Made by a program: the position numbers and the translations under genes. DNA of 64,000 nt from Owenia fusiformis (Eukaryota; Annelida; Polychaeta; Sabellida; Oweniidae): positions 39,249,375 to 39,313,374 of the forward strand of contig CAIIXF020000005.1 of assembly GCA_903813345.2 (NCBI GenBank), read 5' to 3'. Of the stretch, positions 7,582 through 57,200 are shown piece after piece (position 1 is the first letter of the stretch; every line of letters begins with the position of its first letter). Below the pieces are notes generated by a model, which was not told where the DNA came from, made no database searches, and saw only the letters and a list, made by a program, of their open reading frames with translations.

Positions 7582-10500
7582 TTATAACGGAGGCATAGAG
7601 AGTGTGTCCTGACGTTGTAATGGTGGTCTTGGTTTTATCCCCTTGGATTTCATATAAGATGTAAATTGTTCTGGAATCTCAGCTAAGACCTCCTTAGCAA
7701 GTCTAGCCTGACTTAAGGCAAGGTCATGTCCCGATAAACCCCCGATAAAGTCTCTGAAGGGCACAAACTGAAAAATAAAACATACAAAATATTTTGAATA
7801 CAATCATTTTTGGATGGTTTATTATGGATATTTTGCAAACCCATTTTTCAGAAACTGAGTTATGAGTGCATGTACAATGTATTTAATTATTTCCTTTTTT
7901 CAAGAAAAAGTCATTCCTTACCTGCACAATGTCTCTCTCTGCAAGACGTCCTTTAGACGATAGCCGCACATCATCCCCATCCAATGTATCCATAGCTGCA
8001 AAAAGATGGCAATATGTGGACTGCATATATAGTTCATAGATTGCAAGTTGTTTGAGGATCAATAATATAGGACCAAAAGATTTGAAAAATGGAATATGAG
8101 AATAAAGTACACAGATGAGTTCAAATGATTTACAATATGGAAAATACATATGCACTATAAGTTAGTTAACACTAACGATGAGCCCAGTCTCATTTTTGAA
8201 ATACAGAAATACATCCAGCTTGATATTGCAATTGATATGTCATGGCAACTTAACTTTCACTGGTGATCCACTCGATTACGCTGGTTACCAAAACGAACCG
8301 TTTTGGTAACAAAATTTCGGAACGTCGAAGGCACGATTTTTCTTTTTTCCTTATTTCACGCGTTGTAGGCAGAATCCCCACGACGTTTTTTCTCAGAACG
8401 TGCATCAGTATCATATGTTTTAGAAAATGTACATGTTTGCGAAAAAAATAGCTCAGAAGACAACAGAATCGTCGATTTACTTCCTCACTTCAGTTACATA
8501 AACGGTTTTTCGAAAAACAGTTAAGATCTGCACTTTTAACCGAAACCGTTTATGTAACTTAAGTGAGGAAGTAAATCGACGATTCTGTTGTCTTCTGAAC
8601 TATTTGTTCCCAAATATGTACAATTTCTTAAACATATGATACTGATACACGTTTGTGTTAAAAAATGTCGTGGGAATTCTGCCTACAACGTGTAAAATAA
8701 GGAAACGAGAAAAATCGTACCTTCGATGTTCCGACATTTTGTTACCAAAACGGTTCGTTTTGGTAACCAGCGTAATCGAGTGGATCACCAGTGACTTTGT
8801 CATTTTACATTTTACAAAACAACTTTTGAATAACTTAACTAGGCCTGTACAGGGTGTCAAAAACAATAGCATTCACAGCAAAAACTGTTTTATGATATTT
8901 GACACCCTGTATAACTTATTCTCTACTTATGGGTCTTCATGTATTTGTGAACTTGTTTTGATATAACTTACCATCAAACTCAGCATTGCCGACCCCTACT
9001 ATAATGATTGATACAGGAAGCGAAGATGCCTAAAAATATTCATGTATTATTTCATCTACCTTGAAACTAGTTCTAGGTTTGAAATGTAAATGCTTATGTA
9101 TATGTTGAGCAAATACTAAACTGTGAAATTAAGAAATATAGACCGAAGAGCAGGGGTAATATTGTCAAATGCAGGGCTTAAGGCACAAATGTTTTCGATT
9201 CGAAAGATTTTTTGCCTAGCTCTAAGGGGTGTATTCGACGATATTAACCCTGCTCTGAGGTCAATATTACGATTCGAACATGAAAACCCACCAAAATGTT
9301 TTGAATATTCATTATTGTTCGCCCTTACTAAGACCTGCCGTTATGACGTCACACATTACACGTTTTACCAGGGGTATTCTTCACGAATATACCCTGGGTG
9401 AAATGTTGACTTTGTTTACAGTTTATAGAAGGCGTGAATACAGTCATGTTGAATGTACAATAAAAGATGAGTGGCTATAAATCAAGACATAGAATATGAC
9501 AGAATTGGAATGAAACACATTTGGAACCAATGCCTTCTGAATTGGGAACTTCATACTTATTGTCAGAGACTATCTATCTAAAAAGGTATGAAATACATTT
9601 GTATATAAAAAATTAATTAAGAATCAAGGCACCAAGGACATTATTATTATAATAGAGGCAAATATTAAACTTACATTAACAATAGCTTCGCATGTTTGAG
9701 GCATATCTGTTATAATACCATCAGTGAGTATCAGCAGTATAAAGTAGTCTCCACCATCTTGTCTTGCCTGGGCAAACCTAGAGACACAAAGGGAATGATA
9801 TTGCACATGAAGCAACAATAGCATGCGTACAAACCTGTGATATGGTTGATGCATTGTCAAAGTCACTGACTTAAAGTTACATGGTTGTTGATTGGTCCAA
9901 AAGTTAACTACTTTATTACATGATTAATGATTGGTCATAAATGTTTTTAATTTTTTGCATGGTTGATGATTTGTCCCTGATAAGTCCCTGACTTGTTACA
10001 TGTTACATGACTGGTTAAAATGTTTCTTACTTTGTTACATGGTTGATGATTGGTGCAAAGTTGGTAGGTCCATATAGCTGCACTCTACTCAATGATAGAT
10101 GGTAGGCCTCCATCACTCCCTCCACACCTTGGCAATATGGGTTGCTGGCATGTTGATTCTGAAAGTATAAAGCAATAGCTGTATTTGACGATGCTAAAAC
10201 TTAAATTTTTCTTTAGAACCATGAAGATATAAGCAAACATGACTGCAAAAAGTGAAACCAAAGGAACAACCTTAGAGGATATTACATAAAAGCATAAATA
10301 AAACCTAATAGTGATTGAAAAGAACAACTCAAGTGAAGATTCTATTTGTTCCAATATATTTGACAAATGATGTTACAGAAAATCAACAATATCTTCTAAA
10401 GTGAACAAGACAGGAGAATATACATGTTTATCCCACGATTAATGTGTTATCTGTACAATAACAGCTACTGATATTTCTGATATTATTGAAATCCATGTGA

Positions 10501-54200: not shown

Positions 54201-57200
54201 ATTTCACGAGGCCCGTGAGAACCGCAATCAGAACCGAACCGAACTGTGAAATACAATAACCGAATCGAACCGTGAAATCTCAAACCGTGTGACCCCTAGT
54301 TTGGGGTATGTATGTATATTGGTGTGTTTGTGGTATATATGTATATTGGTGTGTTTGGGGTATGTATGTATATTGGTGTGTTTGTGGTATATATGTATAT
54401 TGGTGTGTTTGGGGTATGTATGTATATTGGTGTGTTTGTGGTATGTATGTGTATTGGTGTGTTTGGGGTATGTATGTATATTGGTGTGTTTGGGGTATGT
54501 ATGTATATTGGTGTGTTTGGGGTATATATGTATATTGGTGTGTTTGAGGTATAGAAAGCTCAACAGGAATCTCCATCACAATTACATAGAATCAAAGTGT
54601 GAGATGTATAATGTAGTTTCAGAACATATTGGGATATAGTAATAGATATTCCCTCTAGGTGAATTCATAAAATATCCATACACATAACTAACATTTATAT
54701 TGTTATCCCTTTGATATTTCAGGATTTCTTGCTCCATATTCTAATAGTATTCCAATCCCTAGTGAAACAAGATGTGTTTCCAAGAGACTGGATGGTCATG
54801 AGAATGGTCTCAAACAAGTGAGTTAGAATAATCATAAAGTTACAAGAGTCCTCATGGACTTAATGAGTCTCTGGTAGTATGATTTTTGAATTTCTCATTT
54901 CACAAATAATATTTGGAAATGAATCAGCGATTTGTAGATTGATTACATTTTAGATTCGCCTCTTTCCATCCTTTTAAAATGTTTTAAATGAATTTTTTTT
55001 CAAAAAGTTGTTGAAAAGTGGTGAACACTCACAATATGGATTTTTACCTCCCCTCTGACATAATTATTATAACGGGCATTTTTAAGCAACTCGGTCATAA
55101 CAATGTCTCATTTAAATGCCTTGTTCTTTTCCAGTGTGATACTTACTGCAGTCCAAATCTTCTCACAAGCAATAATTGAGAGGTTCCTAAAGAATAAAGA
55201 TTTTGAATATGATGTGAGTATTGAATGAGAATTCTGAAGTTACAAGGTCACTTATAAATTCCTTTACATATTTATTTGTCTCAAATGATCATGTATAATA
55301 CTCTTCATCAAACAGACCAAGGAAGTATGATTGATAAATTAAGAAATGCATTAACAGGGTTCACAACTAAAATGAACTAACTTGGAAACATTATATCCAC
55401 AATCTACCTACAATTGGCATTTAGTCCATTGCCCAATAGGCAACTGTTTTTCCAAGTTCATTGCCAAGAGTGAAAATTGGTTGCCATTGGCAGTCCGGTA
55501 GATGTGAGTTTCAAATCCTTGCTTAACACTTAGCTCCCATTCACTTGTACTCAAAATACAAAATGTCAGTAATTTCATTTAATAACTGTCATGTTGGTTT
55601 ATACTTTGTTTCATATTTTAACATTTTATTTGATGTAAAGATCCTCATCTGTTTCATGTTTATTTGCAGCTATGGCAGAAATATTTCAGTTTTGCGGTAT
55701 CTTTTCTCACACAGCCTTGTCTTCAACTGGAGAACTTCTCAGAGCTCAAGAGAAGCAAGATAATAGACAAGTAAGGAAATTAATAGACAGGATAAGAAAT
55801 AAATATTCAAGTTAGGAAATTAATAGACAAGTAAATGACATAAATGGGCAAGTAAGGAAATTAATAAAAAAAGTAAAGAAATCAATAGACAAGTAGGTAA
55901 ATTGGATGGCAATGCCAGGATATCATTTTGGATGTCAATCACTGGAGAACCGAATATATGTAGACTTAAATCATCACTGTCACTGTTATAATTATGATTC
56001 CTTCCAACTCTATTCTAGATATCGTGATATGAGAGTGCTTATGGGCTTTGAAATACTAACCATGTGGAAGACTCTGGATAAACACAAGATCATATTCATT
56101 CCTGGTATTGTGGGACAATTTCTCGAGGTGACACTAGTTCCAGAAACTGAGCTGAGAAAAGCAACATTGCCAATATTTTATGATATGATGGAATGTGAAT
56201 ATGCAGATAGGGGAAACTTTAAGCAGGTGGGTTTTCTTCTGTACTGTTCTAAATTGAAATATAACATCAAGTTGTTATATTGATTGGTTGACATCGCAAA
56301 ATGCATGGGAAAAATCCATGTACAGTAAAACCTGTCTAATCTCAATCAAATCCGGACTTGCCAGAAGTATTTAGAATGACAAAGTTCACATGTCAAGGTT
56401 TTTAACATGGAAGTATATGACAGGTAAAAAAGGGTGTCAAAAAATCAAAAAACATTCTCTTTGAGAGGTGTTCAGATTAGTCAGGTGTTTGGATTAGTAG
56501 GATGCATTGGCAATAACCTGTAGATACACAAAATGTAATTGTGATTCAATTTGACAATACATGCATGGTTCTTTAAGATCCTAGACTATGCAACGAATAT
56601 TGTATTATGATAGATAAAAATTTGCAATATTCCAGGTGGAGAGTGAATTGATCGATAAGCTTGACATCTTGGTTAGTGAAAACAAGGGTGACAGTGAATA
56701 CAAGAATCTCTTTAACTCAATGTAAGTGAACCTAGCAGATATACCATTAGGCTATATTTTGTATTCTGTATTATCTTCTTCTTAAGATTGCATCATTATA
56801 ATACAATTATGAAAATGATAAAGCCTTGAATTATTGTGCATTTGGTTTCTGTTTTGCTTTCTAACTCATTGTCATTCATATGAAAACATTTAGAATATAA
56901 CTGCATTTGATTCATTAACATGGATTGTGTGCTGCATTGCTTAACATAACCTTATATAACTTATATATAAATGTTCCTTGCTTACAAGGGAGATTATGGC
57001 GATTTTGTAAGTGGTTAAGTCTAAACAGTGGAGGGAACCCCTGATATCCTAGATTTGCATATTATAGTTTATCCTACAGTTTTAATTTGACCAATTTCCT
57101 GTTTGGTAAAGGGTCTCAAACTTTCCAACTTTACACTTCACATTAAATCCAAAACAAAACATCCCATTCCCAACCTCTCAGTTCTTTATTTTGTGCATTT

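Follow-up and report, generated by a model that had tools for sequence, protein, structure and literature searches.

Tandem repeats running across exon/intron borders were described in the amphioxus Adh3 gene, where they were named mirages, and further cases are known from the amphioxus globin genes BflGb6/BflGb9, TnC and PGBD5, at both borders and with units of 10-160 bp (PMC3087553, PMC3902484). Copies within one globin array were 81-100% identical, splicing was reportedly undisturbed, and it was suggested that introns may be gained by way of mirages (PMC3087553, PMC3902484). Human segmental duplications, too, contain internal tandem repeats where exons and introns meet (PMC2812944), and the Rogers model explains intron gain by tandem duplication, with potato RdRp as an instance (PMC4974935). 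Our literature search for border minisatellites in annelids returned nothing beyond the amphioxus paper; the minisatellites of earthworm metallothionein introns were not described at borders (PMC12783039). A preliminary description of the DNA studied here had reported arrays at exon edges and knew of no named system of this kind, when the literature already held the term mirages.

Border arrays in a copine and a DOCK gene

The window, i.e., the whole stretch of DNA analysed, comprises 64,000 nt of Owenia fusiformis (C5:39249375-39313374), from a 498-Mb assembly with 95.8% of its letters on twelve contigs. Two genes were delimited with tblastn, for which human proteins served as probes only, and with splice phase; the DOCK identity was cross-checked through PDB matches to DOCK5, DOCK1 and DOCK2. 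Within the two genes, splice signals and phase fixed the positions of 100 splice borders, and the exons flanking the arrays carry on the DOCK1 or copine homology in phase (tblastn). Genes and arrays are given in window coordinates:

About 7.6-21 kb, minus strand: copine gene
9877-10059, minus strand: donor array of the copine exon at 10031-10158; 39-bp unit made of the last 29 exon bases and the donor
About 28.5-61 kb, plus strand: DOCK1/2/5-like gene
39181-39277, plus strand: DOCK exon 5 (tblastn to DOCK1), phase 0 into exon 6 at 40402
39232-39652, plus strand: exon 5 donor array; 70-bp unit, six copies, 99% identical
45122-45200 (45137-45189 in TRF), plus strand: donor side of DOCK exon 10; decayed 22-bp repeats, roughly three copies, GTAAGTA in copies
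49672-49822, plus strand: acceptor side of DOCK exon 20; TTTCAGTTGTAATTCAC-like unit of about 20 bp, 7.5 copies, with TTTCAG
52379-52560, plus strand: end of DOCK exon 25 (52439), with a decayed second copy about 87 bp downstream
52904-52960, plus strand: first part of the exon 26 donor array; 27-bp unit, exon end at 52905
52961-54298: nested MITE in the exon 26 array; 16-nt TIRs TAGGGGTCACACGGTT, 8-bp target-site duplication GTTTGGGG
54299-54552, plus strand: second part of the exon 26 array; 27-bp unit, 9.4 copies
55761-55903, plus strand: exon 29 donor array; 20/41-bp unit with 10 exon bases and GTAAGGAAATT

All seven border arrays of the preliminary description are present, but decay is far advanced at exons 10 and 25, and the exon 20 array only abuts the acceptor: its final copy is the acceptor itself and a single exon base lies inside the array, which therefore does not include the border. 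In an unbiased scan, all 100 borders were examined for self-similarity between the border core and the next 200 intron bases, with shuffles providing z. The six highest values belonged to exon 5 (z = 40), the copine exon (10.5), exon 25 (8.6), exon 29 (8.5), exon 10 (4.6) and exon 26 (4.4), and the next best border reached 2.7. A repeat of the scan with fewer shuffles gave z > 4 at 5 of the 100 borders. The decayed two-copy repeat of exon 25 was significant by this approach (P ≤ 0.001). The recurrence of the arrays and their range from near-identical to decayed were correctly described. As repeats, the window sequences lie far beyond chance; their placement at borders does not.

The exon 5 unit consists of the last 46 exon bases, a GTACAG donor and intron sequence, and the array matched one locus in the genome, indicating that it was made locally. 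The exon 26 unit includes 2 exon bases. The array at this exon is real, but the two stretches of 27-bp units, at 52904 and 54299, belong to a single array split by a MITE. The outer MITE contains an inner element of about 470 bp, and both occur in many near-identical copies, with at least 77 matching pieces genome-wide, mostly 95-100% identical, which is a mark of recent activity. Since the array is interrupted by elements with so many near-identical copies, it is older than a recent insertion. A candidate second copy of the array on contig C25 proved to be a different locus by its flanks.

Other arrays with a score of at least 100 were found in the two genes at 18999, 38435, 42853 and 51516, all off borders. 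Introns of both genes carry arrays of a TGTACTG-like decamer (18999-19295, with a 30-bp unit at 18999, and 57542-57577), and a 347-bp satellite-like unit is repeated four times off borders in a DOCK intron (42853-44180). At DOCK exon 11 (45476-45540), the position expected for the donor shows no obvious GT (AAAGCGGGAAGTACAG).

The same structure in other genes

The recurrence extends to other, unrelated genes. A second sample took exons coding for three kinds of domain, myosin head, SNF2 and DOCK, regardless of repeats (96 exons, 192 borders, 170.6 kb), and eight of its borders lay within arrays:

C1:61408244, SNF2: 91-bp unit, 5 copies
C2:4915373, SNF2: 137-bp unit, 4.8 copies
C2:7806907 and C2:7836488, SNF2 paralogue pair: 119-bp unit
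C4:1149895, DOCK: 91-bp unit, 5.9 copies
C1:57373835, myosin: 61-bp unit, 4.5 copies
C4:17297164, myosin, donor: 34-bp unit, 4 copies, 100% identical
C10:4790782, myosin, donor: 17-bp unit, 2.2 copies

In a third sample, of 40 CCT exons, arrays contained 5 of 80 borders (L094, L099, L103, L117 and L121). AMP-binding loci, almost intronless, were left out of the border samples. Pooled with the window (5/100), arrays thus occurred at 18 of 372 borders (4.8%). Donors predominated in the window (6/50 versus 0/50 acceptors, P = 0.027) and acceptors in the other samples; in the pooled set both types were about equal. The donor-side arrays are those of exons 5, 26 and 29, the copine exon, the two myosin donors listed above, L117 and L121; acceptor-side arrays were found in SNF2, DOCK, myosin, CCT, kinesin and ubiquitin-hydrolase genes.

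The kinesin and ubiquitin-hydrolase cases surfaced in family tables and stand outside the count of 18 in 372. In the kinesin exon (C2:23266359-23269174; L083, L084), the acceptor and first part of the exon are repeated 18 times with a spacing of 159 bp; the full exon follows the final copy only, and 17 near-identical acceptor copies precede it. The start of the ubiquitin-hydrolase exon (C9:8171898-8173571; L082) occurs in 11 copies spaced by 150 bp, and one frame stays open throughout the copies (666 aa). Elsewhere, one exon of a myosin head (residues about 28-81) recurs about a dozen times, at intervals, in C9:37986009-37994334; the copies are perhaps mutually exclusive exons.

Placement of the arrays relative to splice borders

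The preliminary description had judged chance placement unlikely, a view largely not borne out by the counts. TRF arrays occupied 9.6-10.7% of noncoding bases in the window and second sample. In the window, they covered 5% of borders versus 8-10% of intron bases, and a circular-shift null gave a mean of 8.3 covered borders against the 5 observed (P(≥5) = 0.87). Array coverage was 4.2-6.8% within 100 bp of borders and 8.5-9.0% at 100-400 bp. There is accordingly no enrichment in coverage, and placement is near-random. A null based on coverage alone is, however, too strict on hot spots: an array confined to an intron counts at many positions, a border array at a single border. The idea is treated more fairly by a seed null, since an array grown from one unit reaches a border only if its seed spanned that border. 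With random seeds, 7.65 border-spanning arrays were expected in two samples and 13 were observed (P = 0.05); a local version gave a 1.5- to 2.6-fold excess.

In a simulation, arrays that matched the real ones in unit, copy number and divergence were inserted at random positions before TRF was run again. This left a 1.4- to 2.0-fold excess (P = 0.002-0.07 by threshold and distance), and downstream-only self-similarity was found at 5.9% of real borders versus 3.2% of matched intron pseudo-borders (ratio 1.83, P = 0.013), with thresholds and distances picked after the window had been seen and one paralogous pair among the arrays not independent. The border preference in these calibrated tests is thus about twofold at most. 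It could be real, it could come from old arrays kept visible by their conserved copy, or it could reflect small numbers.

The arrays had further been described as anchored on splice signals. Duplications triggered by such a signal would be expected to place the junction at a constant point of the unit. Across 17 arrays, the exon/intron junction falls at 0.05 to 0.88 of the unit, a distribution compatible with uniformity (KS P = 0.17). With the junction lying anywhere within the unit, splice signals are not the anchors of the arrays.

Origin of the arrays and comparison with known systems

We favor, with a probability of roughly 0.7, ordinary local tandem duplication that is tolerated across borders as the exon-proximal copy is used, which would make the arrays mostly a by-product of a repeat-prone genome. 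The minisatellites would arise by local tandem duplication, a process common across the introns here. Where a duplication happens to run over the edge of an exon, the copy attached to the exon body would keep a working splice site and the remaining copies would become intronic. Because the extra copies fall into the intron and the working site is kept, such an event should be close to neutral. Arrays may then expand or contract by slippage or unequal exchange, and mutation would decay their copies. The exon-joined copy yields the conserved protein with matching phase, and the shortest exon together with the conserved reading frame suggests that the exon-proximal site is the one used. Exon definition would favor that site, and use of distal sites would be expected to feed nonsense-mediated decay. 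Read-through past exons 5, 10, 25 and 29 and the copine exon meets coding-frame stops directly downstream; exon 26 is the exception, with the coding frame open through the part before the MITE. Stops occur in all three frames in 10 of 12 units from other genes. What counts against random birth alone is the residual 1.4- to 2-fold border excess, unless this is a detection effect or a matter of small numbers.

In a rival reading, the hot-spot idea of the preliminary description, splice borders are genuine hot spots of array birth, through R-loops or through AG|GT or TTTCAG microhomology. We regard this as rather unlikely. The simulation and the pseudo-borders speak for it, as do four arrays (exon 20, exon 26, C4:17297164 and L103) with an exon overlap of 1-4 bases only, but the coverage test is null, the junction position in the unit is compatible with uniformity and the choice of thresholds and distances was post hoc. 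Also on the doubtful side, true two-fold border hot spots might have seeded thousands of border arrays genome-wide, providing natural test cases, with up to 17 near-identical decoy acceptors, of how the spliceosome settles on the exon-proximal site.

Selection keeping the arrays as spare-site reservoirs, for alternative splicing or robustness, is very improbable. GT or AG signals are retained in many copies, and the coding frame runs open through the 27-bp unit of exon 26, where a spare donor would thus add nine residues. Against this, most spare sites bring premature stops or frameshifts, most arrays of the window are decayed, and units and sequences are unrelated from border to border. As most spare donors reach stops, the reservoir proposed in the preliminary description is unlikely to be a coding one. 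Assembly artefacts hardly come into consideration, for although near-identical copies such as those of exon 5 and kinesin are difficult for short reads, copies grade from 100% identical to strongly decayed, variant copies occur within arrays, many genes are affected and a MITE sits inside the exon 26 array.

If duplicated exon edges do occur at about 5% of splice borders, exon ends would be mis-set by gene predictors in this genome, and the arrays would offer a natural experiment both on the choice among near-identical splice sites and on raw material for new introns.

The human repeats and the Owenia arrays both overlap splice borders; the human cases are tied to paralogs of recent origin, to copy numbers that vary and to new introns backed by RNA evidence (PMC2812944). 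Intron gain under the Rogers model likewise involves tandem duplication bearing splice signals, whereas the Owenia arrays appear to lengthen existing introns. The closest likeness is with the mirages of amphioxus, which are also minisatellite-like border duplications with spare AG/GT signals, recurrent within one genome. The Owenia units are of minisatellite size (17-159 bp), they span the exon/intron boundary at exons 5, 26 and 29, at the copine exon and in 13 arrays elsewhere, and they occur at both donor and acceptor borders. Judged from sequence, the Owenia arrays have each structural feature of mirages that can be assessed in this way. Branchiostoma has 18-20 chromosome pairs, and the Owenia assembly has 12 chromosome-size contigs. 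Mirages would extend from lancelets to what is probably another phylum. This, along with a border frequency of about 5% that, unlike in amphioxus, was measured and compared with chance, is likely what the Owenia arrays add to the known systems.
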